Part shown: positions 1,695-24,722 of the stretch, piece after piece
Position numbering within the stretch: position 1 is the first letter of the stretch
How the letters are laid out: every line of letters starts with the position of its first letter
IMG/VR virus record: IMGVR_UViG_3300010885_031327
Coordinates: 1 to 43,032 of that record
Reading direction: 5' to 3' (one strand)
From: a virus
DNA: 43,032 nucleotides
Program-made: the position numbers and the translations under genes
Notes under the pieces: generated by a model
Told to the model about the DNA's origin: nothing
Databases searched by the model: none
What the model saw: the letters and a program-made list of their open reading frames with translations, nothing else

Positions 1695-1699
1695 TCAAT

Positions 1700-2311: not shown

Positions 2312-2312
2312 T

Positions 2313-3619: not shown

Positions 3620-3644
3620 CATTTTGATACATGTGTGTTATAAT
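3616..3644 (+). promoter_or_regulatory. Perfect-consensus sigma70 promoter
   Basis: TTGACA (3616-3621), a 17-nt spacer and TATAAT (3639-3644). This exact consensus is unlike the TAAATA boxes of the surrounding oxygenase genes and implies transcription by unmodified host RNA polymerase. It drives the secreted hydrolase at 3675. Confidence 0.88.
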
Positions 3645-3663
3645 AGTTGTACTATAACACACA
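3632..3663. promoter_or_regulatory. Operator-like inverted repeat over the -10 and start site
   Basis: TGTGTGTTATA (3632-3642) and its exact reverse complement TATAACACACA (3653-3663) are separated by 10 nt. The dyad covers the -10 box and the expected start near 3651, so half of it would not be transcribed. A DNA operator for a repressor therefore fits better than an mRNA hairpin. Confidence 0.65.
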
Positions 3664-3674
3664 GATTGAATTAA

Positions 3675-4676: not shown

Positions 4677-4692
4677 ACATAATAAAATTTAA

Positions 4693-6174: not shown

Positions 6175-6947
6175 TTTATGCACCTATATTAGGAAAACCA
6201 ATAGTTGAACTAGATAAATTTGTAGATACAAATGCATTGCAAAATTTAGAAAAATATGTAGCCTTAGGAATAGCAAAAAATAAAAATCATATTTCAGTAG
6301 CATTTTCTGGTCCCGTTAATCCTGCATTAAAGACTTGGTTAGAAGAAGAAAAATATCTAGAGGTAAAAACTTCCTGGATTAATGTGAATCAGGAAATTCC
6401 AGAAGAGTTAAACAACAGCTGGTCGTCACTGACACATGATCAACAATTATTGTATACACTACTAACAACAAAAAGCAGATCTTTAAATTATACTCTTACA
6501 GTTAGGGCAATATCTAATTCATCGGGAGGCAACGGCGGAAAGTTTCACCTTAAACATCTATCTAAAGAGACAGAAGATACTGCTATTAAGAAAGATTTTG
6601 AATGTATATTTGATTGGGTTAGATCTCAAAACATATTTGACGAAATAGGTAGAGTACAGTTTTTCATAAATCCAGAAGGCAACTCTACACCCATTCATAG
6701 AGATTATGCTGATCGAACACACAACGATCAGTATATATGGATACGATTTAATAAACAAAAAGATTTCTTTGTCTACGACGAAGATACAAATGAAAAGTGT
6801 TTTGTAAATGGCTATGTATGTACATTTGATAATCATCAATGGCACGGCGGAGAACCTGGGGAATGTATGGGATTTAGTCTAAGAATTGATGGACTCTTTT
6901 CAAAATCTTTCTTAGAAAAAACTGGACTGGACAAACATTTTACTTAA
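6171..6947 (+). CDS. Predicted Fe(II)/2OG oxygenase
   Basis: The 258-aa protein overlaps the radical SAM gene by 4 bp. It carries HRD (176-178) in PIHRDYADR, the distal His in NHQWHGG (H222 or H225) and an Arg in SLRIDG (R238). The first 160 residues form an extra N-terminal region with no motif I recognise; the oxygenase core is C-terminal. Translational coupling to the radical SAM gene suggests consecutive steps on the same substrate, which is inference. Confidence 0.68.
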   Translation: MIYAPILGKPIVELDKFVDTNALQNLEKYVALGIAKNKNHISVAFSGPVNPALKTWLEEEKYLEVKTSWINVNQEIPEELNNSWSSLTHDQQLLYTLLTTKSRSLNYTLTVRAISNSSGGNGGKFHLKHLSKETEDTAIKKDFECIFDWVRSQNIFDEIGRVQFFINPEGNSTPIHRDYADRTHNDQYIWIRFNKQKDFFVYDEDTNEKCFVNGYVCTFDNHQWHGGEPGECMGFSLRIDGLFSKSFLEKTGLDKHFT

Positions 6948-6957
6948 ATAGTTGACT

Positions 6958-7569
6958 ATGTTCTCTCCCTATAAATTAACATCATTTGAAAACAATTCAT
7001 TCGAAATAGCAACTAATCTCGATCTAGCAGATAGAATAGAAAAGTTCTTTCTAAATCCACAGGTGGATTTTTTATGGAATATCAATACTAGTCGCCAGCG
7101 CATGGCCGAGGCACTTAAGCACACTAAAATGGTTGCCCTTCGACAACCGATACCTCCAGCAACATCAAACCTTACTAGTACTAACGAATGGAATCAAGTT
7201 ACTACAATTACTAATAGTAAAGTTTTGACATCATATCCTCTATTTCAAGAATTAGTCGAATGGCTCAGAACTTCACTATTAAATAGCGGTGCATCTACCG
7301 TTGAGTTTGGTCGCATCTTTTTTAGCAATCATGCTGCTAATTCCGAAATAGGACTACATACAGACGAAGGTGCATATTTCGACTATTACGACAGATTTCA
7401 TTTTGTTATCGATCAAGTAGATGACGAAAACGTATTTCACATTCGTGAAGAAGATGTATTATTACAAAAAGGCAAACTGTATTGGGTCAATAATCATGTG
7501 CCCCATTGGTTAAAAAATAGTTCTTCAAAAGATAGAATTAATTTAATAGTTGACGCTAGGCTCACATGA
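6958..7569 (+). CDS. Predicted AspH-like Fe(II)/2OG hydroxylase
   Basis: I use the ATG at 6958; a TTG two codons upstream is possible. The 203-aa protein has HTD (134-136) in GLHTDEG, then DRFHFVI, a long insert, NNHVPHW with the distal His (about 183), and KDRINLIVD with Arg (about 193). This closely follows the AspH order HxD...RxH...G...H...N...R(I/L)xL(I)VD. A TAAATA begins at the upstream stop codon, 7 nt before the ATG, so its promoter status is unclear. The gene runs into the TauD-like gene by ATGA. Confidence 0.72.
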   Translation: MFSPYKLTSFENNSFEIATNLDLADRIEKFFLNPQVDFLWNINTSRQRMAEALKHTKMVALRQPIPPATSNLTSTNEWNQVTTITNSKVLTSYPLFQELVEWLRTSLLNSGASTVEFGRIFFSNHAANSEIGLHTDEGAYFDYYDRFHFVIDQVDDENVFHIREEDVLLQKGKLYWVNNHVPHWLKNSSSKDRINLIVDARLT

Positions 7570-8459
7570 AGCAAACACTGATTAATGATAAATGGGGAAC
7601 TATTGTTGAGTTTGATAATCCCTTAGATGTTTTTAAACAAACACCCGGCTATTGGCGAGATATGATGTATGCTAGGCAGTTAATTGTCTTCAAGCGTATG
7701 AAATTTACCAAAGCCAACTATGCAAAACTCTGTGCAAGTTTTGGAAGATTATGGGGAGAACAAGATTATCAGTATAGTCACGAAAAGACAGAACCGGTAA
7801 TAGTTAAAAATTTTAAATTTGTTATCAGTCCTATTAGCAATAAAATTAGCGGTAAGTTAGGCATGAATGAAATGAAATGGCATTCTGATATCCCAAACAA
7901 ACTCGACAAGCCATTTCCAATGCGTTCTATCTGGATGGTTAATAATCCTCATCCTGATAGTGGATTAACTTCTTGGTTAAACATCGAACACGGCATTAAT
8001 TGTTTACCAACAGAGTTAAAAGAACAAATTCCTAACATAAAAATTATTCAGCAAAGCTGGTGGAAAAAAGACAGTGATATACAAGAACACGATTTTATTA
8101 AAATACATCCTATAACAAAACTACCATCATTGAGATTAAACTTTTTCTGCGATACTGAAAGAAATATAAATGATGCATGGATTAAATCTGTTAAAGTACA
8201 CGGCGAAGAACAAATTCCTAAACCTGTGTTAGGACCGTATCTTAAAAATCTACAAGAACAAAAAGAATTAGTCTACACACATAAATGGGATGAATTCGAT
8301 ATTATCATTTATGATAATTGGCCATTTGTACACAATAGAACTAAGTTAGAATTTGATAGCGATTTAGAACGTTTAATGTATAGAACAAATATCGATCATT
8401 TGTCTAATGATGATTATGTTGCTCAAGCTAGATTTGTATTAACGTTGCCCTATGAATAA
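7566..8459 (+). CDS. TauD/TfdA-family Fe(II)/2OG dioxygenase
   Basis: At 297 aa this is the usual length for TauD/TfdA enzymes. The N-terminal part (RQLIVFKRMKFT...FGRLWG) resembles their substrate lid, followed by WHSD (H106, D108), the distal His in PFVHNR (H256) and the C-terminal Arg in MYRTN (R273). Known members hydroxylate taurine, 2,4-D, gamma-butyrobetaine, clavaminate precursors or free amino acids; the substrate here cannot be read. The start overlaps the gene before it and the stop overlaps the next by 8 bp, so it is part of the 4693-9039 operon. Confidence 0.82.
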   Translation: MKQTLINDKWGTIVEFDNPLDVFKQTPGYWRDMMYARQLIVFKRMKFTKANYAKLCASFGRLWGEQDYQYSHEKTEPVIVKNFKFVISPISNKISGKLGMNEMKWHSDIPNKLDKPFPMRSIWMVNNPHPDSGLTSWLNIEHGINCLPTELKEQIPNIKIIQQSWWKKDSDIQEHDFIKIHPITKLPSLRLNFFCDTERNINDAWIKSVKVHGEEQIPKPVLGPYLKNLQEQKELVYTHKWDEFDIIIYDNWPFVHNRTKLEFDSDLERLMYRTNIDHLSNDDYVAQARFVLTLPYE

Positions 8460-9039
8460 AAATTATATTCGATTCCATATTGATAATTTTGCTGAGATAC
8501 AGAAATCGCTGCAAGAGTTGTATAGAGATCAACATACAGGAACATCGTTACAGGCGTTTCCTAAAGACTGGAATCGTGAAAATTTTTTAGAATTGTATGA
8601 TGTAGTTGATCAATTCTTTAAAAACAATAATGCACTAATTGCTTCATGTAGATTCTTTTATACACCAGCTGGTAGGACTCTAGGAGTTCATTTAGATGGG
8701 GAGAAATACAATACAGATTACTGGGCATTAAATATTCCAATTTTTGTCCCTAAATCTATGCATTGGCAAGAGTGGTTTAAATATGATGGTGAGTTAAAGC
8801 AAGAATCTAACGGAGTGTATAGTAGTTACATACAACCATTAAATCCAGAAAAACTTTTAACAATTGATAGATTAATGTTAAATTCACCACATGTATTACG
8901 TGTGGGAATATTTCACAGAGTAATTAATGATTCTTCTGAAGACAGATTGATTGTTTCTATAAGATTTAGAACTAATTCTTTAGATCAACTGTTAACACGC
9001 ATAGCAGAAACTGCTTCAAACGTTTCACCGAAGCCGTAA
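8452..9039 (+). CDS. Predicted AspH-like Fe(II)/2OG oxygenase
   Basis: The 195-aa protein shows HLD (80-82) in GVHLDGEKY, a distal His in FHRVIND (H155) and EDRLIVSIRF (R165), the usual metal and 2-oxoglutarate set. It is the last gene of the plus-strand run and its final 55 bp overlap, tail to tail, with the oxygenase gene on the other strand. The C-terminal 25 residues after the fold lie inside that overlap and are probably less constrained. Confidence 0.68.
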   Translation: MNKNYIRFHIDNFAEIQKSLQELYRDQHTGTSLQAFPKDWNRENFLELYDVVDQFFKNNNALIASCRFFYTPAGRTLGVHLDGEKYNTDYWALNIPIFVPKSMHWQEWFKYDGELKQESNGVYSSYIQPLNPEKLLTIDRLMLNSPHVLRVGIFHRVINDSSEDRLIVSIRFRTNSLDQLLTRIAETASNVSPKP

Positions 9040-9560
9040 GTAAACAAATATCTAGGCTTGTCATTTGTTGCAATGACTTGATGTATGCAACTTGTATCTA
9101 ACAGATATGCATGTCCGTTTTGACACTGATGTGTCTCAGCAACACTTGGATACATAAAATGATTTCTAGTTGACGAAGTCTTTGTTATAGCACCGGTGGC
9201 GTTTTTAATTCCGATGTTAATACTACATTTCCTATTACTTTCGTCCATGTGCTGTCTAATACTACCGTGTGTTTTAATTAAATTTACTCGCTGAACATCT
9301 AGTTGTAGTGTAGGAAAAAACTTGTGAATATAATCAACTACATGCTGTGCAACACTGGGATATTGTAAGTATAGTTTTCTGGCAAAAGAAATAGTGCCAT
9401 CACCCTGCTGATATGGTTGGTACTCGGTCCAATAAAGAGTAGTTGGATTTTCTTCCATAGCCTGTCCATACTTGTGCTTATGTATAGGTAGTGAATCTAA
9501 TATGTCAAGATCAAATTCCTCTGGTACTGTAAACTCTTTATCAAATTCAATAAAACTCAT
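8985..9560 (-). CDS. Predicted Fe(II)/2OG oxygenase
   Basis: The 191-aa protein has HMD (104-106) in RQHMDESNRK, SINIGI on the next strand, and a distal His in DTSCIHQVIATN (H160) followed by PRYLFTYGF (R170). It is the third gene of a minus-strand operon of three oxygenases (10845 to 8985), starting by ATGA overlap with the gene before it and ending inside the convergent plus-strand gene. No terminator is visible between the converging units. Confidence 0.68.
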   Translation of the reverse strand: MSFIEFDKEFTVPEEFDLDILDSLPIHKHKYGQAMEENPTTLYWTEYQPYQQGDGTISFARKLYLQYPSVAQHVVDYIHKFFPTLQLDVQRVNLIKTHGSIRQHMDESNRKCSINIGIKNATGAITKTSSTRNHFMYPSVAETHQCQNGHAYLLDTSCIHQVIATNDKPRYLFTYGFGETFEAVSAMRVNS

Positions 9561-10198
9561 TCTTCGATCCTTTTTAAAAATTTAACATTGTTCAATGATG
9601 TTAAATTGCCCCTAACAATCAATACAAATCTTGCCGAACTATTATTCACCGGAACCCTGTGTGGATATTCGTTGCCATTAATACAAAATACTGTGTTAGA
9701 TTTAGAAGGTATAATTTCATATACTTTATCTTCTACCATAGTCTGCTCAATCTTTTTTAATTCTCTACCATGCGCTAGATAGTTAGGTCTTAGCCTAGAC
9801 ATTTCTAAAAATGTTTTACTGGTATCTAATCCAAAACACAATCTAAAACCGTAGCCAGCATCTAGATCAAAATGAAAATTAAAATCATAATCGGTTTGTT
9901 CTTTTTGGCTTATTAATAAAATTATTCTACTAGTTTTAACTATGGGTAATGAATCGATAGTTTCAACTAGTCTATTAAATGGTGTAACGTCTTTATAGTT
10001 GTAATTCGGAATACCATTAAACTCTAATACACGACGATCCCATGGATATCTTCTACCGTTTCTTTCAAAGTAAGTCTGTTCTTCAGCAAATGCTTTTGAA
10101 TGTTCATGTCTAAATTTAGTAGCAGATAAGAAATCGTCTAGCTCTTGAAAAGTGATGTCCGGTAATGCTACATCTATTTCGCCTGCTATTAACCCCAT
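9557..10198 (-). CDS. Predicted Fe(II)/2OG oxygenase
   Basis: This 213-aa protein has HFD (109-111) in NFHFDLDAGYGFRL, with an Arg (R119) after it as in AspH-like proteins, then a distal His in GNEYPHRVPVNNSS (H180) and ARFVLIVRG (R190). It overlaps the AspH orthologue upstream by 10 bp and the next oxygenase by 4 bp. It lacks the DDS.H motif that marks classical AspH, so it belongs to a different subgroup from its upstream neighbour. Confidence 0.68.
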   Translation of the reverse strand: MGLIAGEIDVALPDITFQELDDFLSATKFRHEHSKAFAEEQTYFERNGRRYPWDRRVLEFNGIPNYNYKDVTPFNRLVETIDSLPIVKTSRIILLISQKEQTDYDFNFHFDLDAGYGFRLCFGLDTSKTFLEMSRLRPNYLAHGRELKKIEQTMVEDKVYEIIPSKSNTVFCINGNEYPHRVPVNNSSARFVLIVRGNLTSLNNVKFLKRIEE

Positions 10199-10845
10199 TG
10201 CTCTTCTTCTCTTAAATTTTCAATTGCTACACGATCCAAATCTACAATTAAAATAACTCTAGAATCTGTACCGTTATGCGTTGTGCCGTGAAAGGCATCG
10301 CCGTCATCAAAACACCACACCTTTCCTGGTTCCCATGCTCTTGGAGCATAATCTCCTACGTGAAACTTAGCTTCTGGATCACATATAATTCCCATATGAA
10401 ATCTAGCATACTTCGAAACCATTCCGTAATGCATGGATAGTTTTGCAGGAGGGTGCATTAAATTGAAACCCACACATCCAACTGCACTGCCGTAGGGTTC
10501 TAAAATCTTTTCTAGTGTAGGGGTTAATTCTCTTTTTTGTTTAAATCGTTGTTCTGCAAGATCATGGCTTGTTTGATCCTTACCCCATACTGCTTCGTAC
10601 TCGGGTTTCGAGCAAGATGATTCTGCTACTCTAGTAAACACAGAATTAATTTTACCTTGGTATAGTATTTTCCCATTAGATGCTTTTTGATCTACCACTC
10701 CCCCCATTTGATTATTGGGTTTAACTCCAAGGAAGTGAGTAGATAGTGTTTGAAATTCTTTCAAAATAGTATCAAAGTTTTCTCGTAGTGCAATCGAAAG
10801 AGGGTGTTCAAATACTTCAATATATCCTAGTTTAGGAGTAGTCAT
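10189..10845 (-). CDS. Aspartyl/asparaginyl beta-hydroxylase (AspH) homologue with HxG metal site
   Basis: The 218-aa protein follows the catalytic domain of human AspH motif by motif: HYG (139-141) for HTG, ARFHMGI for LRMHLGL, WEPGKVWCFDDGDAFH for WEEGKVLIFDDSFEH (distal H186), then SRVILIVDLDR (R196) for FRLIFIVDVWH. As in AspH, the usual metal-binding Asp is a Gly, leaving a two-His iron site. AspH hydroxylates Asp or Asn in EGF-like protein domains; bacterial relatives act on peptides, lipids or amino acids. It is the first gene of the minus-strand three-oxygenase operon, with a late-type box about 23 nt upstream of its likely leader. The family call is strong; the substrate is unknown. 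Confidence 0.87.
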   Translation of the reverse strand: MTTPKLGYIEVFEHPLSIALRENFDTILKEFQTLSTHFLGVKPNNQMGGVVDQKASNGKILYQGKINSVFTRVAESSCSKPEYEAVWGKDQTSHDLAEQRFKQKRELTPTLEKILEPYGSAVGCVGFNLMHPPAKLSMHYGMVSKYARFHMGIICDPEAKFHVGDYAPRAWEPGKVWCFDDGDAFHGTTHNGTDSRVILIVDLDRVAIENLREEEQWG

Positions 10846-10916: not shown

Positions 10917-12440
10917 ATGGAAGTTATTTTTTGGAGCTCTGAAGCGCATACTAATAAAGTTTTTAATAGGTACCTCGGACCTTACAAAATTGCATACTGG
11001 TTGCGAGAACACAATCACACCTGCCAGGTTATTGATTTTATAACTCATTGGACTAGGGAAGAACTTTATGAAATAACTAAAAAGTTCATAACAAACGAAA
11101 CTAAAATTATTGCTATTTCCACAACATTTCTTTGCACCACTAGATATAGATGGGCCGATGGCACTAGCCCAAGGATGCCCGAACGTGTTATTTGGGCATT
11201 AACTGAATTAAAGAAAGAATATCCACACCTTAAAATTATTGTGGGTGGGTATGTATCTAATAGAATTCCATCATTTAATGTTATAGATGCCACTGTGATG
11301 ACATATAAAGGTGCTCCAGAAGATGTATTTTTGGAATATCTTGAGCACTTTACACATGGAACCCCACTCCCCTTGGGAGAATTAGAATTTAGAATAACTG
11401 ATGCTGGACCCGGTCACGAAAAGCCTATGATGACATATCATACTGCTAGGAATCCAAAATACAGTATTGAAGTTGATGATTTTAAATTTTCAAAACAAGA
11501 TTTTATATTACCAGGAGAAGCACTGCCGTTAGATGTAAGTCGTGGTTGTATATTTTCCTGTAAGTTTTGTCAATTTCCTCATTTAGGTAAAGGTAAATTA
11601 GATTACATCAGAGGAATGGAATTTTTAAAAGAAGAAATTCTGCATAATTACGAAAACTTTGGAACTACTGCTTACTACATTGCAGACGATACATTTAATG
11701 ACACTGAATGGAAAATGTCCGAGTTTTTAAAGATGACTCAAAGTCTTCCTTTTAAAATTACATTTACTGCATACCTTAGAGCAGATTTAATACATCGATT
11801 TCCAGACACTGCACACATGCTTAAAGAAGCAGGGCTCTTTGGAGCTTATCATGGTATTGAAACTCTGCACCCAGAAGCTAGTAAGATTATCGGCAAAGCG
11901 TGGAGTGGAAAACATGCTAAAGAATTTATTCCAGAATTATATCATAACATTTGGAAGAAAGAAGTTCCCATGCATACTAACTTTATAGTAGGACTACCTA
12001 AAGAAACTCGACATAGTGTAAATCAAACTCTTAGATGGTATTATGAAAATAACTTACACAGCATTAGATTTGTCGCCCTGGGCATATACAAGGCAGGTAA
12101 CGATAACACCACTTATTCTATATCGTCGGAGTTTGATAGAAACGCAGAAAAATACGGATTTACCTTTGAAGAAAACACACAGGGTATATACGGTAATCGA
12201 GGATGGAAGAACGATAACTGGACAGAACTAGAAGCTATGAAAACTGCCAGTCAGTTAAACAGAATTCTAGACAAAGACAAAGTTGGAGCACATGTCTGGC
12301 TCAACCCTGGATTAATGTTCTTGGGATGGAGCAAAGAAAGAATCTTAGAGAATAGATCGGAACGAATAGGTCTAAATGAAGCTTATATACAAACTCGTGA
12401 AAAATACAGATTGTATTACAATACTGTCATAAACAGTTAG
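10917..12440 (+). CDS. Radical SAM protein with B12-binding-like N-terminal domain, paralogue
   Basis: This 507-aa protein parallels the enzyme at 4693: N-terminal Rossmann-like domain (GPYKIAYWLREHNHTCQVIDF), CIFSCKFC (C211, C215, C218) and a barrel with YIADDTFNDT, YHGIET and IVGLPKE. The sibling has FMDDTFNDT, SLGVET and IIGLPGE, so the two probably do related chemistry. No DxHxxG cobalamin motif is seen. It is a single-gene unit with its own late-type box and a good ribosome site (AAGGAAATC before ATG). Its stop overlaps the convergent GNAT-like gene by 4 bp. Confidence 0.85.
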   Translation: MEVIFWSSEAHTNKVFNRYLGPYKIAYWLREHNHTCQVIDFITHWTREELYEITKKFITNETKIIAISTTFLCTTRYRWADGTSPRMPERVIWALTELKKEYPHLKIIVGGYVSNRIPSFNVIDATVMTYKGAPEDVFLEYLEHFTHGTPLPLGELEFRITDAGPGHEKPMMTYHTARNPKYSIEVDDFKFSKQDFILPGEALPLDVSRGCIFSCKFCQFPHLGKGKLDYIRGMEFLKEEILHNYENFGTTAYYIADDTFNDTEWKMSEFLKMTQSLPFKITFTAYLRADLIHRFPDTAHMLKEAGLFGAYHGIETLHPEASKIIGKAWSGKHAKEFIPELYHNIWKKEVPMHTNFIVGLPKETRHSVNQTLRWYYENNLHSIRFVALGIYKAGNDNTTYSISSEFDRNAEKYGFTFEENTQGIYGNRGWKNDNWTELEAMKTASQLNRILDKDKVGAHVWLNPGLMFLGWSKERILENRSERIGLNEAYIQTREKYRLYYNTVINS

Positions 12441-13030
12441 ATATTGCCGCCTAATGGTGTTATTTCTCTATATTTCTGTTTAAGAAATGTACAACGAACA
12501 ATAGTATCATTCGGCAATAAAATTCTATTGAATAGAATCTGCCAATGATGTGTGTAGACACATTTGTTCTTTGCAGGTACAAGACATTCGTCAAAGTAAT
12601 CGTAGCGTTCATCTGCCCAGTCGCTAAATGCAAAGCGTCTTAATAGTTTAGCATGCCTGGCATTCCACAACGTGTAGAATTTAAAACGACCAGTTTCTTC
12701 ATTAAACTTAATCATTTCATCTAGCAATGCTCTGGCGACATCTTTGCTGTTTTTAGATCGAATTTGTGTACCGTACCAAGCAGGTTCGTCGGAACTTTGG
12801 TAGCAGGATATTGCACCAATAATATTATCATCGTCATCAAATGCTCCAAATGCGTGATAACTTTTTAAATCTGTAAGATATGTTGTGCAGAATCCTTTGT
12901 GATAAATCTTTGCCATGGCGTGTTTGGCAAAGAAATCACTCGATTCAATATTGGAACCCATATATTTGCTGACTTCGAATAAAGGCTCTAATGCTTCTAT
13001 GTGTGTGCTATCTAATTTTTTAATAATCAT
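12437..13030 (-). CDS. GNAT-like acyltransferase
   Basis: The 197-aa protein has a central GAFDDDDNIIGAISCY, typical of GNAT strands 2-4, a segment DVARALLDEMIKFNEE at the place of the acyl-CoA-binding helix, and NARHAKLLRRFAF, like the NxxAxxLY(R)xxGF helix of GNATs. The canonical Q/RxxGxG/A loop is not clear, so acetyl-CoA use is likely but unproven. It is the last gene of the five-gene minus operon 16066-12437 and starts by ATGA overlap with the PP-loop gene. A second GNAT-like gene lies at 16120. Confidence 0.55.
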   Translation of the reverse strand: MIIKKLDSTHIEALEPLFEVSKYMGSNIESSDFFAKHAMAKIYHKGFCTTYLTDLKSYHAFGAFDDDDNIIGAISCYQSSDEPAWYGTQIRSKNSKDVARALLDEMIKFNEETGRFKFYTLWNARHAKLLRRFAFSDWADERYDYFDECLVPAKNKCVYTHHWQILFNRILLPNDTIVRCTFLKQKYREITPLGGNI

Positions 13031-13947
13031 AACGACGCCCTTAACTGTCTAATTGTTTCTTCGTAACTAATTCCGTCTAGACTCGATTCTAAACGTTTGA
13101 TTTGATTTGTTCCTATTGATTTATAGGCACTGTGATTGAAGGCTAATAGGCTTTCGAATCCGTGTGTCTTACGTTTTTTAGTAACGTATGGGCATAGTTC
13201 TTTTAAAATTTTATTCTTGCTTGACACAGAAGTTAGTTTGTAATTGTATCGGTCGGAGACTAGAGATACAATGTCTGGATTTTCCAAATAATATAACATT
13301 AATTCAGGAGTATAACTAAACCATTCATTGACTAAAGGAATGTTGAACTTATTGGTAAATCTCATTGCACTAGCATCTTCGTTTTCACGGAAGGTATAGT
13401 ACCAATGACTCTTATCCAAACTCACTGACCTAGTTAACAATGTTTCACCACCCATAACAGCCGGGGCACCTATCTTGAGAATATTGTAATAGACCATGAT
13501 ATAGGTAATTTGTGAGCATTGTAGCTGCTCACCGAATTCAGTTGCTTCACCGGATTCAAAGAAATCAATAACATCAAAGTCAATAATTTCTAAATCTAAA
13601 TCCATATGTCTAGCTAGACGTTCTGCTTCATTGATGTCAGCGGCATTGTAATTATCTTTGAATTTGATTGATACACACTTGGGTTTGATACCAATAGATA
13701 AAAAGTTGTTGACAACAATTTCACTGTCAGTACCGCCTGACAGGAATACTACTAAGTCTTTGCCAAATTCTTTATGTACACAGTCAGCAGTCCTGTGCAA
13801 TTCTTTTTCATAATTGCTGGTACGATATTGATCGGGATCAACCGCACCTACATTGACCTTGAACTTTTCAAACGAATTTTCTCTATAGCCCCATAGGCGA
13901 TCTCCGGTGCTGTAGGTTAGATGATTATTCAGCGTGAAGTTTGTCAT
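13027..13947 (-). CDS. PP-loop ATPase, asparagine-synthase-C-domain-like, no glutaminase domain
   Basis: The 306-aa protein has the PP-loop SGGTDS (70-75), then KFKDNYNAADINEAERLARHMDLDLEIIDFD, which matches the second strand of asparagine-synthase/ExsB-type ATP pyrophosphatases. Such enzymes activate a carboxylate or other oxygen by adenylation for attack by an amine or sulfur. The N-terminal Ntn-glutaminase of asparagine synthetase is absent, so the amine donor must come from elsewhere. It overlaps the desaturase gene by 23 bp and the GNAT-like gene by 4 bp. Two further proteins of this type occur at 18008 and 19159. Confidence 0.75.
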   Translation of the reverse strand: MTNFTLNNHLTYSTGDRLWGYRENSFEKFKVNVGAVDPDQYRTSNYEKELHRTADCVHKEFGKDLVVFLSGGTDSEIVVNNFLSIGIKPKCVSIKFKDNYNAADINEAERLARHMDLDLEIIDFDVIDFFESGEATEFGEQLQCSQITYIMVYYNILKIGAPAVMGGETLLTRSVSLDKSHWYYTFRENEDASAMRFTNKFNIPLVNEWFSYTPELMLYYLENPDIVSLVSDRYNYKLTSVSSKNKILKELCPYVTKKRKTHGFESLLAFNHSAYKSIGTNQIKRLESSLDGISYEETIRQLRASL

Positions 13948-14758
13948 TGCGATCCTGGTAGATTTTTTGTCTGCTTTCTTTTGTTGCTAACAAAGGTAAC
14001 ATAATAAGAGACAGGTCAAATTCTTTAGCGTTACCACTAACAGTTGATCCGAAGTCATATGATGACGCTCTGGAGTGATGATTATTGTGCCATCCTTGAC
14101 CCCATGTAATCCATGCTAGTAAAGGAACATTGCGGCTTTGATCTTTAGTATCAAAGTTTCTGTAGCCAAATCCGGGAGAATGACAGAATACATTAATATT
14201 ACTTTCCATGTATAAACTCAATGCTGCTGGAATCATAAATCCAAATAATAATATTTGCCAACCGAAGAGTGATAATACTACTGCATAGGTGGTTAAAATA
14301 ATAGCAATATAATGCTTGGCAAACCACATATGCATAGGATCTCTAATTAGATCAATAGCATATTTGGGATTAAAATATTGGTCCCAATCATGCAACCACA
14401 TGTGCCACGAATACCATTTGCCCTTAGTGGGAGAGTGAGCATCTTTTTCTGTATCAGCATATCTATGATGACTGCCTCTATGTATTGCGGCCCAACCTAA
14501 TGGACTTCCTTGTAGTGCAAGACAGCTAATCCAAAGCAATATCGGTTTTAGACCCGGACGTGCTTCAAAGGCTTTGTGACTAACATACCGATGCAGAGTT
14601 ATGGCAACTCCGATGCCTTCGATGATTACCCAACCAACAAAGGTATACAGAGCATGTTTCCATTCTAGGCCAAAGTATATCATTGCAATAAGCCCAATCC
14701 ATGCAAGAGCATGAACAGGATAAAGAACATAATACAAAAATGTGTTTATTTTAGGCAT
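13925..14758 (-). CDS. Membrane fatty-acid (acyl) desaturase, delta-9 type
   Basis: This 277-aa protein has all three histidine boxes of the acyl-CoA/acyl-lipid delta-9 desaturases: HRYVSH (56-61), HRGSHH (93-98) and HNNHH (about 224-228), with hydrophobic hairpins at about 8-50, 70-92 and 145-185. The boxes bind a di-iron centre that inserts a double bond into an acyl chain in the membrane. I start at the ATG at 14758; a TTG three codons upstream is possible. It overlaps the DUF3750-like gene by 13 bp. In an oxygenase island it suggests either membrane-lipid remodelling or oxidation of an acyl chain on a product. Confidence 0.9.
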   Translation of the reverse strand: MPKINTFLYYVLYPVHALAWIGLIAMIYFGLEWKHALYTFVGWVIIEGIGVAITLHRYVSHKAFEARPGLKPILLWISCLALQGSPLGWAAIHRGSHHRYADTEKDAHSPTKGKWYSWHMWLHDWDQYFNPKYAIDLIRDPMHMWFAKHYIAIILTTYAVVLSLFGWQILLFGFMIPAALSLYMESNINVFCHSPGFGYRNFDTKDQSRNVPLLAWITWGQGWHNNHHSRASSYDFGSTVSGNAKEFDLSLIMLPLLATKESRQKIYQDRNDKLHAE

Positions 14759-15306
14759 AATGACCAATGTTTATTATTTTTAAATCCATAAGATCTAAGT
14801 GGTCTGGAAAAATCCAAATCCAACTTGTGTATTACATATGATGCAAACGTATTACAATTAGTAGTTAATAGATTAAACTCGTTATATGGATAATCCTTGC
14901 AAATTTGTTCAATCTCTGTATATTTAAAATTGTTTAAAGCAGCGCCTAGTATTATAGGATCAGCGCCAAACCATCTAGCATCTGGAGTCCTATTACTAAT
15001 TACCACACTGTGTTCAATGTAAGCTACATCATTTATATACAACGGTTTTGCTTTTTGAACATCTAATGTTTCTAAATCTGTTAACTCTAACACTAACCAC
15101 GAATTCTTTTCTTTACTCCAGAACGCAAACCACGAATGCGTTCCGCCTAACCAACCTTTTAATGCCCATGCCCTAGCATGCAGATAATAAAAATAATCTT
15201 TATCGAGATTCAAGTCTGCAGAACTCGCATCTAATAATTTCCAATCTTTAAACAGACGATTGGTTACGTTGTTCAATTTGATAATAATTGATGTGTTGTC
15301 TGTCAT
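14746..15306 (-). CDS. DUF3750-like protein, possible permuted papain-fold hydrolase/acyltransferase
   Basis: The 186-aa protein contains GGTHSWFAFW (H57), RWFGADP, KDYPYNEFNLLTTNCNTF (C151) and a final RSYGF. The order and wording resemble DUF3750 proteins, whose W/PGPNSNTF motif falls where NCNTF lies here. A His before a Cys in this arrangement is also the mark of permuted papain-fold (LRAT/NlpC-P60-like) enzymes that act on amide, thioester or acyl bonds. Its gene begins inside the PhyH gene (59-bp overlap) and runs into the desaturase, so an acyl-transfer role is attractive but is inference. Confidence 0.5.
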   Translation of the reverse strand: MTDNTSIIIKLNNVTNRLFKDWKLLDASSADLNLDKDYFYYLHARAWALKGWLGGTHSWFAFWSKEKNSWLVLELTDLETLDVQKAKPLYINDVAYIEHSVVISNRTPDARWFGADPIILGAALNNFKYTEIEQICKDYPYNEFNLLTTNCNTFASYVIHKLDLDFSRPLRSYGFKNNKHWSLCLK

Positions 15307-16066
15307 AGGCTGCTTTCCATGCTATTAAATCTTTTTCCCAATCGCCGGTGGGGCGTGGATCTTGTATCATATAATTAAATTCGTCAACGCCATTAACAAG
15401 TATAGTACTTTCAGGACTTAAATTTAATCTTGGTTTGCAATCAGTGCTGGCAAAAATCATTCCCATAGCAACTCTAGTAGTTGCAGCGTTATTCTTGCCA
15501 CTACCGTGTATAATAAACGGACTATGGATCAGTACGTTTCCAGCAGGCACTTGAGTTTTAATTCTTTCTTTGGGGATATCAACATCAACTGTCTGTCCAC
15601 GCATTAACAAATTGCTGTCTGTTTTAACATCTTTATGCCTACGTTGAAATACAGTATGACTTCCTTGCACATATTCGAGACTGCCCTGCTCTTCAGTTAC
15701 ATCGTCAAATGCAAACCACACGGTTAGTGCTGCGGCAGCTTTATCAAAATTCCAATACGTACTATCTTGGTGAAAGCTAACATCCTTGCCATCACCGGGC
15801 TTCTTAATCCAAAACAAAGTATCCCAACAGTGAATGTTAGGTCCAATTAGTTGTTCTAGATATGCTAATAGTTTTGGGTTTCTACTAATTTCATCAACCC
15901 AAGGAAACAATACATTGCTTTTGCAACGATAATCGCTGCGCATTAGATCCAATTTTTCATCGGCATCTAACATCAGTTTCTTATACTCGGCGGCTTCTTC
16001 CTTGGACATAATTTCCAATGGGCCTACCCAACCATTAGTATCGAATGTTTGTTTAATGTTTTGCAT
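15248..16066 (-). CDS. PhyH-family Fe(II)/2OG dioxygenase
   Basis: At 272 aa this has the phytanoyl-CoA hydroxylase pattern: FHQDSTYW (H99, D101), TVWFAFDDVTEEQGSLEYVQGSH, then HSPFIIHGSGKNNAATTRVAMG with the distal His (H187) and Arg (R198). HxD is intact, so it should hydroxylate rather than halogenate. Family members act on acyl-CoAs, ectoine and many natural products. It is the first gene of a minus operon that continues with the DUF3750-like protein, desaturase, PP-loop ATPase and GNAT-like protein. A late-type box 5 nt before the ATG predicts a leaderless mRNA. Confidence 0.88.
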   Translation of the reverse strand: MQNIKQTFDTNGWVGPLEIMSKEEAAEYKKLMLDADEKLDLMRSDYRCKSNVLFPWVDEISRNPKLLAYLEQLIGPNIHCWDTLFWIKKPGDGKDVSFHQDSTYWNFDKAAAALTVWFAFDDVTEEQGSLEYVQGSHTVFQRRHKDVKTDSNLLMRGQTVDVDIPKERIKTQVPAGNVLIHSPFIIHGSGKNNAATTRVAMGMIFASTDCKPRLNLSPESTILVNGVDEFNYMIQDPRPTGDWEKDLIAWKAAYDRQHINYYQIEQRNQSSV

Positions 16067-16077: not shown

Positions 16078-16119
16078 CCTGGTTTGCCTGTGTCTAGAAA
16101 AATTTCTGATATATATTGC

Positions 16120-16677
16120 ATGATGCAGGTAATTGATCTTTCTAAACAATTTGAGTACCTAGACTTGTGGTATGAATCAATCGATTACATTTGCAAAACG
16201 GCAGGGGACCTTAGAGACAACTATTCTAATTTAGACCCTATCGAGTTTGAATGCTTTACCGCAGTTGTAGAAGATAACACTATATTGTGCTTTAGCGCAC
16301 TACAAGTTTCTCCAGATGATTGGGGAACACAAATTGGACGATGCAGTACAAGGATGTGGATACATCCAGATTATAGACTTACAGGGATGAAAAAATTTGT
16401 CGGAGGTGATAAGTTTTTAAATACTACACATTGTCTACCTATACAAATAGAAAAAGCCAAATCTTTGAGATTAGATTGTATCTTTGTAAGCCGAGAAGAC
16501 AATCCACTAGGATTTAGTGAATATGTTAACTTGATTAAAATTAATACTGGTACAGAATTTACAATGCTATCCGAAAAATATAATCTATTCGGAGTAGAAC
16601 AATATGTTGCGGTTAGCATGTTGACTACAAACGGATTAACAGAATGGAATAAGTCTATGGAAAAGTTTAAAGTATGA
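16120..16677 (+). CDS. GNAT-like acyltransferase
   Basis: I start at the first of two adjacent ATGs (16120, 16123); the longer TTG frame from 16084 is less likely. The 185-aa protein has a GNAT-style core, FTAVVEDNTILCFSALQV then TRMWIHPDYRLTG and a C-terminal YNLFGVEQYVAVSM. The RxWIHPxYR segment matches the strand and loop where GNATs bind the pantetheine, although the glycine-rich loop is degenerate. It shares an ATGA overlap with the PurD-like ATP-grasp gene, tying it to the mirror-image module. Confidence 0.55.
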   Translation: MMQVIDLSKQFEYLDLWYESIDYICKTAGDLRDNYSNLDPIEFECFTAVVEDNTILCFSALQVSPDDWGTQIGRCSTRMWIHPDYRLTGMKKFVGGDKFLNTTHCLPIQIEKAKSLRLDCIFVSREDNPLGFSEYVNLIKINTGTEFTMLSEKYNLFGVEQYVAVSMLTTNGLTEWNKSMEKFKV

Positions 16678-18011
16678 GTTTCTTTGAAAAGAAAAGAGTG
16701 TTAGTTTTGGGACCAAGTCTAAGTGATGCAAGCATTGCTAGGATAATTGCAGAACAACATCCCGATATTACAGTTGATCTAATGACCAGCAATCAGCAAA
16801 CATCAATTATTCCTAATTTAAATGTCATTCCGTTTATGCTAGAGTTTGCAGGTCCAGTGGATGCAACTTTTTGGGAAAATAAATTAACCTTTTTCAAAGA
16901 AGGATCTTTTAAATACCTAACCTCTGATCTTTTAAATTTTATAAAAGAAAAAAATGAAGACTATGATTTAATTATTGCATTAGGGTTAGAATTTCAGCGT
17001 TGGGTGTCTTGGCGTAATTTAAGAAAAGCTATTAAAACTCCAATTTTATGTCCTAATCATCAAGCAGCCGCCACAGAATTTGACAAGCTCTTTACTAAAG
17101 ATATATTACTAGAGATAGGAATTCCAACACCTAAATACAATTTAATAGATTCCACAAAGGTCATTGACGAGTTAGACCGCCGGCCATTGCCTATAGTTTT
17201 TAAATTTAGTAAAAACTTTTCAGCTTTGGGCTTCGGTTCATGGGTGTTTAAAAAAAGATCCTATTACGAAACGGTGCCATTACTAGTGCAGATGACGAGT
17301 TTTGTAGAACAAGAAATATATACCGAAGAATTTATTAAGGGTAAAGAAGTTTCTGTACACTTTATTTGTAATGGCACAGAATGGCAGTACATTGGTGCTG
17401 CAAGAGACTATAAAAAAACCTACGAATACGACCTAGGAGCAAATACATCAGGCACTGGCTCGTACTCAGAGGTTAATTATTTTACAGATGAGATTAAGTC
17501 TACCGTGTTCGAATATATGGACAAGCTGATGTTGCAACTGAACAGACTAGGCATATTCTTTAAAGGCATATTTTACATGGGAATTATAATTGATGAGAAT
17601 AATGTTCCGTATATCTTAGAAATTAACTCAAGGCCGGGACTACCAGAGATGCTATCTATTCTAGGAAATGTTAAGTCAGGTACGTTGTTGGAGAATTTTT
17701 ATAGGGCTGCTACAGAAGATGAGCTACTTCCTTTTGAACAAGATAACTCTGCATCGGTGTCTATCTGCATAATACACAAAAATTACAATCACATTATGAA
17801 ATTAAACTCAAAGCTGCCGGATTTTTCTGATGCACCTAGTGACATTAAAATAGACTATGCATCGCATATGCTCAACAAGTTTAATATTTATTGCTGCTTA
17901 ACCGCTACTAGCAATACTAGATTTTTAGCAGCTGAAAAGATAAACAAATATCTCGAAACCAAAGATCTAAAAGATTTTAGATACAGAAAAGACATAGGTT
18001 TTTTAGAATGA
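16674..18011 (+). CDS. PurD-like ATP-grasp ligase
   Basis: The 445-aa protein matches glycinamide ribonucleotide synthetase (PurD) throughout: a Rossmann-like N-domain, an ATP-grasp core, ARDYKKTYEYD near 243 where PurD has ARDHKR, NTSGTGSYSE for NTGGMGAYSP, EINSRPGLPE (316-325) for EFNxRFGDPE, and a C-terminal FRYRKDIG. Mg-ATP-binding Glu and Asn are present. Changes at several conserved PurD residues suggest a substrate other than phosphoribosylamine plus glycine. ATP-grasp ligases join a carboxylate to an amine through an acyl phosphate. It is coupled by ATGA to both neighbours and has a paralogue at 20334. Confidence 0.83.
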   Translation: MSFFEKKRVLVLGPSLSDASIARIIAEQHPDITVDLMTSNQQTSIIPNLNVIPFMLEFAGPVDATFWENKLTFFKEGSFKYLTSDLLNFIKEKNEDYDLIIALGLEFQRWVSWRNLRKAIKTPILCPNHQAAATEFDKLFTKDILLEIGIPTPKYNLIDSTKVIDELDRRPLPIVFKFSKNFSALGFGSWVFKKRSYYETVPLLVQMTSFVEQEIYTEEFIKGKEVSVHFICNGTEWQYIGAARDYKKTYEYDLGANTSGTGSYSEVNYFTDEIKSTVFEYMDKLMLQLNRLGIFFKGIFYMGIIIDENNVPYILEINSRPGLPEMLSILGNVKSGTLLENFYRAATEDELLPFEQDNSASVSICIIHKNYNHIMKLNSKLPDFSDAPSDIKIDYASHMLNKFNIYCCLTATSNTRFLAAEKINKYLETKDLKDFRYRKDIGFLE

Positions 18012-19177
18012 TTCATGATAGCATAATTAAAAATAATCAAGTAGGCTATTATAAAGTTGGAGAGAAGCTGTTCCTTAACAAACTAGCAGCATTACAATGG
18101 TCTGCTCAAACAATCACTCCTGTAACCTACCATTGGTTTGATGAATCATTCGATACATTTAATCGATCACTACTAGGAACTGTGTCATTAGATGCACTCT
18201 ACAAAGAACGTGCTCAACGCCTTCGCGACAAATATGATTATCTAATTTTAAATTATTCAGGTGGTTGCGATAGTTGGAATATTTTAAAAACATTTCTAGA
18301 TAACAACATAAAATTAGATCAAGTTATGATTTGTTGGCCGTTTGGCGCATCGAAAACATATAAGCCTAATATTAAAGATGTCAGTGCTGACAATTTTATG
18401 AGTGAATGGGACTTTACTATGAAGCCCGACCTCGAATGGCTGGCCCAGTATCATCCTGATATTAAAATTGAACTAATCGATTGGGCCGAACCATTTGCAA
18501 ATAATCCTAATTTTGTTAATGAAAGATCATTTGATAAATTAAATCACTTTCACAACCTTGCTGACTTAGCTAGATCTACATTATTCTCTAAAACAGAAAG
18601 AGAAATGATAGAAAAAGGCAAAACAGTTGCAACTATATGGGGACTAGATAAACCAAATATTTCCAGGCTAGGAAATCAAATAGGCATGTCATTCTATGAC
18701 AGCGTTACCACAGTTGCTCATCCAGCACCCTGCAATCCGTTTGGTACTGAATACTTCTATTGGGATCCTAATATGCCCGTCATTGCCTACGAGATGGCAT
18801 ATCAAACTCTTAATTGGTTCAAGGCTAGACCACGTATGCAGAAGTATATTTGGAATGAATCGGAAATAGGCACAGAGATAGATACATTCTTGGTTAAGAA
18901 ACAAGTAAATTTAACTGCCTGTAGAGACAGTTGTTATACAACATGGAACAATAAGCCTACACAATTCCAAGTTAACAAGCCTGTTGACATTATTAGAGCA
19001 GACAAAGACTTTTGGCTCTACGAACACCGTGAATTATCTCACCATGTTGACAAATGGAAACCACTCTACGATGAATTGTTAAGCACTGTTGATAGAAAAG
19101 ATACTTCTATAAAAGAAGGAAAACCTGTAGGATATCGATCTTTTTCAACTAAGCGACATTACTTTGCAACTATCTGA
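18008..19177 (+). CDS. PP-loop ATPase paired with ATP-grasp (copy A)
   Basis: The 389-aa protein has an N-terminal beta-rich segment, RAQRLRDKYDYLILNYSGGCDS (PP-loop 84-89) and a long C-terminal half rich in Trp and Tyr. The copy at 19159 has RAQQIRDEYDYVVIMCSGGADS at the same place, and both share TADIS/DVSADN-like and YGIDKP/WGLDKP segments, so they are paralogues. PP-loop enzymes release pyrophosphate from ATP to activate a substrate. It is coupled by ATGA to the PurD-like ligase and its last 19 bp overlap the convergent copy. Confidence 0.75.
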   Translation: MIHDSIIKNNQVGYYKVGEKLFLNKLAALQWSAQTITPVTYHWFDESFDTFNRSLLGTVSLDALYKERAQRLRDKYDYLILNYSGGCDSWNILKTFLDNNIKLDQVMICWPFGASKTYKPNIKDVSADNFMSEWDFTMKPDLEWLAQYHPDIKIELIDWAEPFANNPNFVNERSFDKLNHFHNLADLARSTLFSKTEREMIEKGKTVATIWGLDKPNISRLGNQIGMSFYDSVTTVAHPAPCNPFGTEYFYWDPNMPVIAYEMAYQTLNWFKARPRMQKYIWNESEIGTEIDTFLVKKQVNLTACRDSCYTTWNNKPTQFQVNKPVDIIRADKDFWLYEHRELSHHVDKWKPLYDELLSTVDRKDTSIKEGKPVGYRSFSTKRHYFATI

Positions 19178-20337
19178 GTAGGAAAAAACTTTGATGTTGG
19201 GCCTAATTTATAATATTTTCTATAAAGATTAAATCCCGTACCTGTCTTATCAAGATATTTGGCATTTATTGTTTTAATAAAATTTCTAAAATCTGAATCA
19301 ACTAGTTCGTACATTCTAGTGTCATGATGTAGTTGATAAAACCAATCGTCGTGTTCTCCCAAAAACATTCTAGTTGGTTTTGCTCCTTGGAATATTGGCT
19401 TCCATGTAGATGGATAGATACATGGAACTATAGCACGTTGATAAAAACTGTTTCTAATTTTATTTTGCTGTTCAAACATTGTTTTATGTTTCAAGCTATT
19501 GTAGACCAATTTTAATACTTTTTCGTTTTCCGGTAATGCTACCCACTTGGCTACCTGATGTCCTTGTTTAACCATCATTAGAGGGAGGTCTGGAGAATAA
19601 TAAAACAATACATTTTCCACATTAGGGTAAGGTTTATCAAAGGCTGGACGTTGAACATTGACTGTGCTATCTGCAATTTGAATCCAAATATCTCCGTCGG
19701 TGCCGACTAATACTGTTGGTTTATCGATGCCGTAGACTATGGCTATCTTTTTTCCACTCTCGGCCAAGTTCCTTAAGTGTGTTAATTGTTCTAAATTGTA
19801 TCGAGCAACTCCCGAAGGATGAATCCACTCTCCTCCTCTAAACAACCAGTCGTCTGTTTTAAAATCGATCATATTTTTAAAATAATCGTTTATAGTAATT
19901 TTTACATTGGGGTGCTTGGCTTTAATATCTGCTACCAAGGGCAACTGAACTAGGTACGTTTCACTCATGGTATTAGACGCACTAATATCAGCGGTTGTAT
20001 TTTTCCAATTGTTTAAACCTGATACTGGAGCAGAAGCAATAATTTCATCCACTAGTATATTGTTATTTAAAAATGTCCAAGCAATGTTGGTACTGTCTGC
20101 GCCACCACTACACATTATCACAACATAATCATACTCATCTCGAATTTGTTGAGCACGGATTTTATAAAATTCATCTAGCGTTGTTGTTGGTTCAGTGGCC
20201 CAATCTACAGATTTTAAGATTGTATCATTGAAATTCCATTCTACATCAGCTAACGTTTTGTTAGCATACAGGATAGCGTCTAGTTTTTCAAAAAAAACCT
20301 TTCCGTTTACTGTGTAATGGCCCAATCGGTTATTCAT
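19159..20337 (-). CDS. PP-loop ATPase paired with ATP-grasp (copy B)
   Basis: The 392-aa protein carries SGGADS (77-82) and the same order as copy A: GHYTVNGKVFFEKLDA at the N-terminus against GYYKVGEKLFLNKLAA, then FYKIRAQQIRDEYDY, ISASNTMSE, YGIDKP and a C-terminal EHDDWFYQLHHD against ADKDFWLYEHRE. It follows a PurD-like ligase gene with ATGA overlap. The function is not known; the conserved pairing with ATP-grasp on both strands suggests the two proteins act together. Confidence 0.75.
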   Translation of the reverse strand: MNNRLGHYTVNGKVFFEKLDAILYANKTLADVEWNFNDTILKSVDWATEPTTTLDEFYKIRAQQIRDEYDYVVIMCSGGADSTNIAWTFLNNNILVDEIIASAPVSGLNNWKNTTADISASNTMSETYLVQLPLVADIKAKHPNVKITINDYFKNMIDFKTDDWLFRGGEWIHPSGVARYNLEQLTHLRNLAESGKKIAIVYGIDKPTVLVGTDGDIWIQIADSTVNVQRPAFDKPYPNVENVLFYYSPDLPLMMVKQGHQVAKWVALPENEKVLKLVYNSLKHKTMFEQQNKIRNSFYQRAIVPCIYPSTWKPIFQGAKPTRMFLGEHDDWFYQLHHDTRMYELVDSDFRNFIKTINAKYLDKTGTGFNLYRKYYKLGPTSKFFPTQIVAK

Positions 20338-21599
20338 TTTTGATATCCTATGTCTGTTCGATAGGTAAACTCATTCATGGTTTTGTTCTCTAAAAATTTA
20401 TATAGCGTGGCTGCTGCTTCGTCTACAGTGTCGCAAGTTGCTGTAATTGTAGAATTTAACAATCGTCTATTACGTTGTAATCCTAAACAAATATTTGGAG
20501 GTATTGGATATAAGTCGGGATTTTTAAACTTATTAGATTTATCTGCTGTTGATATTTCATAAGTTTTGTTAATTATTCTAATGGTTGCAGCAGATTTATC
20601 TGTAAATTCTATTTCAGGAATACTGTCATTGCTGGCAGCAGCATAAAATAATGTTGACAGATCATTTTTAATAATAGAAAAAATTGATTGTAACTCTGGG
20701 TCTCCAGCTCTGGTATTAATTTCTAGAACATAGGGAACATTGTCAACTATCATTATTCCTAGATATAAAATACCCACATATGGGGTCCCTCGGTTCTTTA
20801 AAAAATCTATAATTTTGTCTACATAGGTATGTATAATTGGATCAACATCAGGCACCGGCGAGTACGAACCCATCCCTGCTGTGTTATATCCCTTATCATC
20901 TTCATAACGCTTTTTGTAATCTCTAGCAGATCCTAAGTATTTCCACCCGGTAGAATTACATAGTGCGTGGAAAGAGAATTCTCTTGAGCCCGATACAAAC
21001 TCTTCAACAACAAATGATTGATTTAAAAAATCTCCTACATGCTGTTTTTGATATCGAACGCTTCCTTCTTTTTGAAGATAGTTGAATAATTCTTGATAAT
21101 TGTCATCATCAACAATAACTGTTTGGAGTCCAAAACGCCAATCTCTTTCGTATTTTAAAACAAACGGTCTTTTAATTTCAAAAAAGTTTTTAAGTATCTC
21201 TTCCCTAAACATTATTTTATATTTGGGAGTAGGGATTCCTAATTTAGTTAATAGCCGTTTGCCTGTAAATTTTGACCACTCTAACATTCCTAGATCTTTA
21301 GTAGGCATTAAAACTGGTATATTTTTTTTTATGATCTTTTCATGTAGTTGAGTCCACATTTGATAATGATGTTTAACCGGTATTATCAAATCAACTTCTA
21401 CAGTGTCTAAAAAATCCAAAACATTTACAGGAATATTGTGTATCATTTCGCCCAAAATAGTCAGCGGAATGTATTGATTAGTAGGAGGGAGAGAGTCAAA
21501 TCCCTCTGCATGATAGATTACATTAAGCTCGGATTCTTGAATTAATTTTTGACACAGCAGGTGTGCTCCTGCAGTTGTTCCTAATACCAATATTTTCAT
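20334..21599 (-). CDS. PurD-like ATP-grasp ligase (second copy)
   Basis: This 421-aa paralogue of the 16674 product is closer to true PurD: SARDYKKRYEDDKGYNTAGM (about 224-243) and EINTRAGDPE (293-302) match the phosphate-binding and metal-binding motifs, and it ends FTYRTDIG. The N-terminal domain begins MKILVLGTTAGAH, a PurD-like glycine loop. It could be a genuine GAR synthetase or a relative with a new amine or acid. It leads the minus-strand ATP-grasp/PP-loop pair from a late-type box, with an AGAGAG ribosome site partly within an inverted repeat. Confidence 0.83.
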   Translation of the reverse strand: MKILVLGTTAGAHLLCQKLIQESELNVIYHAEGFDSLPPTNQYIPLTILGEMIHNIPVNVLDFLDTVEVDLIIPVKHHYQMWTQLHEKIIKKNIPVLMPTKDLGMLEWSKFTGKRLLTKLGIPTPKYKIMFREEILKNFFEIKRPFVLKYERDWRFGLQTVIVDDDNYQELFNYLQKEGSVRYQKQHVGDFLNQSFVVEEFVSGSREFSFHALCNSTGWKYLGSARDYKKRYEDDKGYNTAGMGSYSPVPDVDPIIHTYVDKIIDFLKNRGTPYVGILYLGIMIVDNVPYVLEINTRAGDPELQSIFSIIKNDLSTLFYAAASNDSIPEIEFTDKSAATIRIINKTYEISTADKSNKFKNPDLYPIPPNICLGLQRNRRLLNSTITATCDTVDEAAATLYKFLENKTMNEFTYRTDIGYQK

Positions 21600-24029: not shown

Positions 24030-24722
24030 ATGCATGTTAAATTACTCAGCTACTCACAACCAACTGCAGAATTTGCCAGCATGGGTGTCGATGATGCGCA
24101 GGAACTTATTGCGTATTGTGCCCGTGTCAGCAACCCTGCCAATCAATTTAACACCGAGACATCTGAACGACTTATCAAATACTTGGTCAAGCACCAACAC
24201 TGGAGCCCACTCGAAATGGTCTCCGTCTGTTGCGAAATTGTTACAACCCGCGATATCGCACGACAGATTCTACGTCACAGAAGTTTCAGCTTTCAAGAGT
24301 TCTCCCAGCGATATGCTGATCCTACAGCTGAACTCGATGAAGCGTTTATGCTACGTGAGGCACGATTCCAAGACACCAAGAATAGACAAAATAGCGTAGA
24401 GCTGGACATGAGTGACGAGGCGCAAAAGCTAATTGCCATTGAATGGGAACGTGCTCAGAAGCGTGTATTGTTTAGTGTCAAACAAGAATATAAATGGGCC
24501 ATTAAAAACGGTATTGCCAAGGAACAGGCTCGAGCAGTTCTACCAGAAGGACTCACTGTCAGTCGTATGTACATGAACGGCACACTGCGTTCGTGGATTC
24601 ATTATATGGAACTACGTTCTGCTAATGGTACACAAAAAGAGCATCAGGAAATTGCCATTGCCTGTGCCAAGGCTATTGCTGAGATCTTTCCAATGGCTGA
24701 ATCTTTGATAGCAAATGGATGA
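24030..24722 (+). CDS. thyX: FAD-dependent thymidylate synthase ThyX
   Basis: The 230-aa protein has the ThyX signature RHRSFSFQEFSQRY (82-95), matching RHRx7S, and further conserved segments HWSPLEMVSVCCEIVTTRDIARQ before it and RAVLPEGLTVSRMYMNGTLRSW after it. ThyX makes dTMP from dUMP with methylenetetrahydrofolate, FAD and NADPH, supplying thymidine for phage DNA synthesis. The length is normal. It starts 5 bp after the upstream stop and overlaps the next gene by 8 bp. This is a confident call. Confidence 0.95.
   Translation: MHVKLLSYSQPTAEFASMGVDDAQELIAYCARVSNPANQFNTETSERLIKYLVKHQHWSPLEMVSVCCEIVTTRDIARQILRHRSFSFQEFSQRYADPTAELDEAFMLREARFQDTKNRQNSVELDMSDEAQKLIAIEWERAQKRVLFSVKQEYKWAIKNGIAKEQARAVLPEGLTVSRMYMNGTLRSWIHYMELRSANGTQKEHQEIAIACAKAIAEIFPMAESLIANG

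Follow-up and report, generated by a model that had tools for sequence, protein, structure and literature searches.

In an analysis of Aquifex PurD (glycinamide ribonucleotide (GAR) synthetase), the charged residues assigned to ATP are K103, K143, E185, E192, and K214, Mg is held by E100 and K214, and glycine by D212, R287, and E292 (PMC8880213). The clavulanic acid pathway uses a PP-loop beta-lactam synthetase, the 2-oxoglutarate (2OG) oxygenase clavaminate synthase, and the ATP-grasp N-glycyl-clavaminic acid synthetase (GCAS) (PMC8954882), and the tabtoxin pathway (TblS, TblC, TblD, and TblF) contains a PP-loop synthetase, a 2OG oxygenase, a GNAT domain, and a D-Ala-D-Ala-ligase-like ATP-grasp enzyme (PMC3927611). 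In phages, one report predicts a secondary-metabolite cluster in jumbo cyanophages (PMC7824862), and another describes a hypervariable host recognition cluster beside the tail fibres of T4-like pelagimyophages, with lipopolysaccharide and radical S-adenosylmethionine (SAM) genes (PMC7029224). Here we describe a 43,032-base fragment from an IMG/VR virus record (IMGVR_UViG_3300010885_031327; the whole stretch is hereafter the window) that carries two gene pairs, A and B, each encoding a PurD-like ATP-grasp ligase and a PP-loop enzyme of a family that we refer to as PP1. The pair is a real conserved and co-inherited unit in viruses.

Pair A (16674–19177, plus strand) and pair B (19159–21599, minus strand) meet tail to tail, with a 19-bp overlap between the ends of the two PP-loop genes (19159–19177), and in both pairs an ATGA junction with a 4-nt overlap joins the ATP-grasp gene to the PP-loop gene. 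The open reading frames thus agree in order, strand, overlap, and coupling with an earlier description made from the letters of the window alone (the original prediction), which took the arrangement for a mirror-image duplication. The homology part of that proposal holds, as the two ATP-grasps are 34% identical (E 1e-56) and the two PP-loop proteins about 30% identical (E 7e-41), but the trees do not support a local event. Identity is 30–34% between A and B and as high as 61% with orthologues of the same type. The A-type ligases (window A and locus L003) and the B-type ligases separate at the base of the phage clade, and their PP-loop partners are placed in two distant regions of the PP-loop tree. 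A recent inverted duplication of the pair is ruled out by this ancient split in both trees. The other viruses found with the pair have A or B and not both, with one ligase per contig searched. Given the ancient split and the single ligase of every other contig, the window appears to hold two old paralogous modules that have been brought together tail to tail. It is plausible that pairs A and B act on different putative substrates. Promoter and terminator scans performed no better than on shuffled sequence.

Both ATP-grasps match the GARS_A profile above its cut-off, and the best PDB sequence matches of both are PurDs (Table 1), in agreement with the predicted PurD-like character. The AlphaFold2 model of ATP-grasp A has a mean predicted local distance difference test score (pLDDT) of 84.8, and all of its top 15 PDB fold matches in Foldseek are GAR synthetases, at a template modelling (TM) score of about 0.8. 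We compared the active sites in the numbering of 2YW2, with residue roles as in the Aquifex study cited above. All nine ATP, Mg, and glycine residues are retained in the 13 full-length phage proteins, the exceptions being two conservative changes, both in L101. Since the acyl-phosphate residues are kept, the amide-type ligation proposed originally is a sound inference, and the ligase probably still makes an aminoacyl phosphate, with an amine other than phosphoribosylamine as the acceptor. Three PurD stretches, GGREHA, PGN, and VGPExPL, are conserved in the aligned bacterial PurDs and lost in all 13 phage proteins. The phage enzymes would thus have retained the activating half of PurD and had its acceptor half replaced.

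In a tree with seven sampled bacterial PurDs, the 13 phage ATP-grasps form one clade of their own (support 100/100). Copy B had been described as closer to true PurD, and by GARS_A score it slightly is (107 bits vs 93 bits for copy A); both nonetheless fall within the phage clade. We found no purine genes in the neighbourhoods of the ATP-grasp pairs at the examined loci. Because the N-domain loops are lost and no purine genes lie around, the phage ligase is very unlikely to be a housekeeping PurD. An ordinary PurD with purine-pathway neighbours, the outcome that had been named as fatal to the original prediction, is rejected on these grounds and by the separate clade. Annotated PurD matches in a GenBank phage collection prove to be purD genes of bacterial type, on contigs that are bacterial or of doubtful label; MT835991, OQ572412, CAKLQH020000004, and other records are of this kind, and several look like host contamination.

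The PP-loop partners carry the predicted motifs, SGGCDS after RAQRLRDKYDY in A and SGGADS after RAQQIRDEYDY in B. Among 79 PP1 members, the S, the second G, and the D of SGGxDS are invariant, and the first G and last S are at least 90% conserved. A pattern search of IMG/VR viral contigs selects at least 353 relatives of the family, which gave no convincing profile match in Pfam, NCBIfam, PHROGs, or the PDB. The model of PP-loop A (pLDDT 94.3) has a nucleotide-binding core that weakly resembles LarE, MnmA, TilS, and asparagine synthetase (best E 4.5e-3, TM below 0.35); the core aligns to LarE with a probability of 1.0 and an E of only about 6e-3. Over its full length, the fold is shared with six uncharacterized proteins from uncultured Caudovirales. 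None of the 79 members matches PF00733 (Asn_synthase) at E 0.05, a single one matches the QueC profile (E 0.02), and one weakly matches WbuX at noise level (E 0.029); across the family there is no conserved Cys for a zinc site. The best Cys column reaches only about 20% of the 79 members, and this absence of a conserved cysteine argues against sulfur transfer by PP1, which was dropped as the leading idea.

Scans of viral contigs yielded 14 ATP-grasp genes of the phage type on 13 distinct contigs. A fifteenth was left out since its contig (L005/L091/L099) comes from the virus of the window itself or from one nearly identical to it, and the L004 contig holds only the tail of the ligase. The pair recurs elsewhere, a point on which the original prediction had been made to depend: the PP-loop gene directly follows with exactly a 4-nt overlap in nine of the 14 cases (window A, window B, L003, L004, L006, L092, L102, L104, and L107), and one more (L105) has a single gene in between. 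In L106, two PP-loop genes lie about 20 kb from the ATP-grasp, and altogether the PP-loop family is present on 12 of the 13 contigs. Gene order and the 4-nt overlap are maintained across pairs of 30–60% identity while other neighbours vary. The trees of the two partners in the nine pairs have an identical topology (Mantel r 0.86, p 1e-4), and the correlation persists among the B-type pairs alone (r 0.77, exact p 0.007). Pattern-based scans of GTDB contigs found no cellular relatives of the PP-loop protein and only one match to the ATP-grasp, a genuine purD; as these scans depend on short conserved stretches, absence from cells is not proven. Among the papers searched, none joins ATP-grasp, PP-loop, and phage.

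Our favoured reading, held tentatively and with somewhat less than even confidence, is that an environmental tailed phage uses each pair as a two-enzyme module for ATP-driven amino-acid coupling. From an alpha-amino acid such as glycine, the ligase would make an aminoacyl phosphate and join it to its new amine. The PP-loop enzyme, acting after or before the ligase, would release pyrophosphate as it adenylates the shared intermediate at a carboxylate or amide oxygen, and a second nucleophile would then close an amide, amidine, or ring. Nearby 2OG oxygenases, the desaturase, and GNAT-like proteins may trim the product, a putative small molecule that infected cells would make from an amino acid. 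What we infer here is the donor (an amino acid), the sequence of the two steps, and the kind of product. Taken together, the findings suggest a virus that makes a small molecule or a decoration derived from an amino acid. A bolder version, which we regard as possible but rather doubtful, is a phage pathway for a new class of such molecules, in which PurD, converted to an aminoacyl ligase, passes its product to the PP-loop enzyme, itself from an undescribed family; the latter would form an amide, amidine, or strained ring, and oxygenases would modify the result. If this were true, the phage would use the small molecule against competitors or to reshape the host, and should the pair indeed produce a small molecule, the islands of these phages would be biosynthetic ones. 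The locus offers a testable case of a core-metabolism ligase, PurD, re-tooled by phages, next to a partner family that environmental phages carry in abundance and that is nevertheless missing by profile from Pfam, NCBIfam, and PHROGs.

Several points weigh against the coupling module. That the lost N-domain loops form the phosphoribosylamine site is a premise taken from PurD in general, and retained amino-acid binding would rest on three residues. The arrangement also differs at some loci, with a more divergent PP-loop gene directly upstream of the ATP-grasp in L103, a PP-loop gene 2.4 kb away in L100, and none in L101. Most PP1 members occur without an ATP-grasp, often preceding a TctC-type solute-binding protein, so the PP-loop enzyme's own reaction does not need the ligase partner. 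Finally, congruent trees are evidence of co-inheritance and not proof of a shared pathway.

An unlikely alternative is that the pair serves to decorate polysaccharides or lipids of the surface. The ATP-grasp would attach an amino acid to an amino sugar or aminolipid, and the PP-loop enzyme would make an amide or amidine as O-antigen amidotransferases do, thereby changing host receptors or excluding other phages. The position of the array next to the tail-fibre genes recalls the pelagimyophage cluster (PMC7029224), and the nearby desaturase and GNAT-like genes as well as the WbuX match would fit; that match, however, is confined to one member in 79, and the window array has no clear glycosyltransferase, nucleotide-sugar, or aminotransferase gene. 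We consider it less probable still that the two genes travel together as cargo and function separately, their adjacency being hitch-hiking in a hypervariable island. The island is packed with metabolic genes that are unrelated and change order, and the ATP-grasp is missing beside most PP-loop relatives, but hitch-hiking sits poorly with an order and overlap that outlast the change of neighbours, and with the matching partner trees. Hypermodification of a macromolecule (DNA 7-deazaguanine, tRNA, or protein) seems improbable to us. PP-loop enzymes often act on bases, a QueC-like gene is present in the window, and FolE-like and QueE-like genes, read from the sequence, lie near L006; the QueC-like gene is nevertheless 11 kb off and unlinked to the pair, QueC-like genes are also found on contigs without an ATP-grasp, and we found no domain for binding RNA or DNA. 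Sulfur transfer to the ligase product by a LarE- or MnmA-like PP-loop enzyme is very improbable, for although LarE is among the best PDB fold matches of the PP-loop protein, the likeness is limited to the nucleotide-binding core and no cysteine is conserved. That the ATP-grasp is a working PurD supplying purines during infection, with the PP-loop gene incidental, is scarcely credible despite the PurD fold and catalytic residues, given the loops lost throughout, the separate clade, the lack of purine genes nearby, and two copies in one virus.

The two pairs lie in a variable metabolic gene array that fills the first 22 kb of the window, with 2OG oxygenase, radical SAM, desaturase, PP-loop, and GNAT-like genes (Table 1), followed at 22–43 kb by largely tail-fibre and other structural-type genes. 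The GNAT-like gene of family 34 upstream of ATP-grasp A has relatives in L003, L107, and L019 and is likely the third gene of operon A. Genes for PhyH and the DUF3750/PPPDE-type protein accompany the A-type pair in the window, L003, and L004; in four viruses the latter adjoins or sits near PhyH, and its product is possibly a permuted papain-fold acyl transferase or peptidase. Neither the family 34 GNAT-like protein nor the PPPDE-like family gave a usable PDB profile match. The desaturase-like gene is present in nine of the 13 ATP-grasp loci, and the order GNAT39–PP2–desaturase is repeated in L003. Enrichment of these neighbours (desaturase, PP3, GNATs, and PhyH) has uncorrected p values of 0.01–0.03 and fails strict multiple-test correction. 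The window contains four PP-loop genes in all: PP-loop A, PP-loop B, PP2, and the QueC-like gene.

Table 1. The two ATP-grasp/PP-loop pairs and other features of the window.
Feature	Position	Strand	Remarks
ATP-grasp A, PurD-derived ligase, divergent A-type	16674–18011	+	445 aa; GARS_A E 2.6e-26
PP-loop A, family PP1, SGGCDS	18008–19177	+	389 aa; PP-loop core weakly like LarE/MnmA/TilS/Asn synthetase
PP-loop B, family PP1, SGGADS	19159–20337	-	392 aa
ATP-grasp B, PurD-derived ligase, B-type	20334–21599	-	421 aa; GARS_A E 1.1e-30, PDB PurD E 1.4e-29
GNAT-like protein, family 34	16084–16677	+	4-nt overlap with ATP-grasp A; by eye, no Pfam/PDB match
PhyH-type 2OG dioxygenase	15248–16066	-	PF05721 E 2.8e-22; also in L003, L004, L025
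DUF3750/PPPDE-type papain-fold protein	14746–15306	-	invariant GTHS and NCNTF
Fatty-acid desaturase-like membrane protein, His boxes	13925–14767	-	PF00487 E 4.5e-15
PP-loop protein of another family (PP2), SGGTDS	13027–13947	-	close to QueC/NAD synthetase by profile
Small GNAT-like protein, family 39	12437–13030	-	assigned by eye only
Radical SAM protein	10917–12440	+	PF04055 E 1.2e-14
Small 2OG-type oxygenase array (Asp_Arg_Hydrox, TauD, similar)	1100–10845	.	about ten, some without family assignment
TauD-family oxygenase	7566–8459
Second radical SAM protein	4693–6174		within oxygenase array
ThyX thymidylate synthase and UV-damage-type endonuclease	24030–24722, 31323–32348
QueC-like gene, PP-loop	32642–33292

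Related arrays in other viruses also hold TctC and DctP binding proteins, P450, Rieske, an AMP-binding ligase, short-chain dehydrogenase/reductase (SDR), and beta-keto acid cleavage enzymes (BKACE). The TctC type is represented by 72 copies in 53 loci (L012–L089), often directly after the PP-loop gene. The TctC-type and DctP-type phage proteins mostly have signal-peptide-like starts (for example L012:11107–11994 and L023:11259–12173), and no permease to match them was noticed in the loci, though no search aimed at permeases was made. Rieske and P450 oxygenases and the AMP-binding ligase with SDR and BKACE occur at L048:9108–9986, L056:16111–17259, L105:5442–7060, and L105:16761–18224. T4-type portal genes are present in nine of 28 related contigs, including the 235-kb contig of L107, and none is in the 43-kb window; the source is probably an environmental tailed phage, T4-like.

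Compared with PurD, the phage ATP-grasp has the same domain architecture, fold, and nine binding residues; it differs in the three missing stretches, its separate clade, its phage-borne setting, its PP-loop partner, and its lack of purine neighbours. PP1 shares with LarE, MnmA, TilS, and asparagine synthetase the nucleotide-binding core with SGGxDS, and differs in its N- and C-terminal parts, the absence of a profile match, and the lack of a conserved cysteine. The islands of jumbo cyanophages and pelagimyophages are likewise phage-borne, and either are rich in 2OG oxygenases or carry radical SAM cassettes next to tail fibres; in the parts of those reports considered here, carbamoyltransferases, a halogenase, or glycosyltransferases are named, and neither a PurD-like ligase nor a PP-loop enzyme. 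The original claim that no described system has such a pair does not stand, since clavulanate and tabtoxin use the same enzyme classes and the combination is therefore not unprecedented. The clavulanate pathway, like the phage array, brings together a PP-loop adenylating enzyme, a 2OG oxygenase, and an ATP-grasp amino-acid ligase, a likeness at the class level only, as the phage PP-loop family has no Asn_synthase match and the phage ligase is PurD-derived. TblS and TblF of tabtoxin combine the two classes of the phage pair, again at the class level, in a bacterial cluster whose enzymes are non-homologous to or distant from the phage ones. By analogy with these two pathways, the putative enzyme logic is already known; the enzyme families and the phage setting are new.

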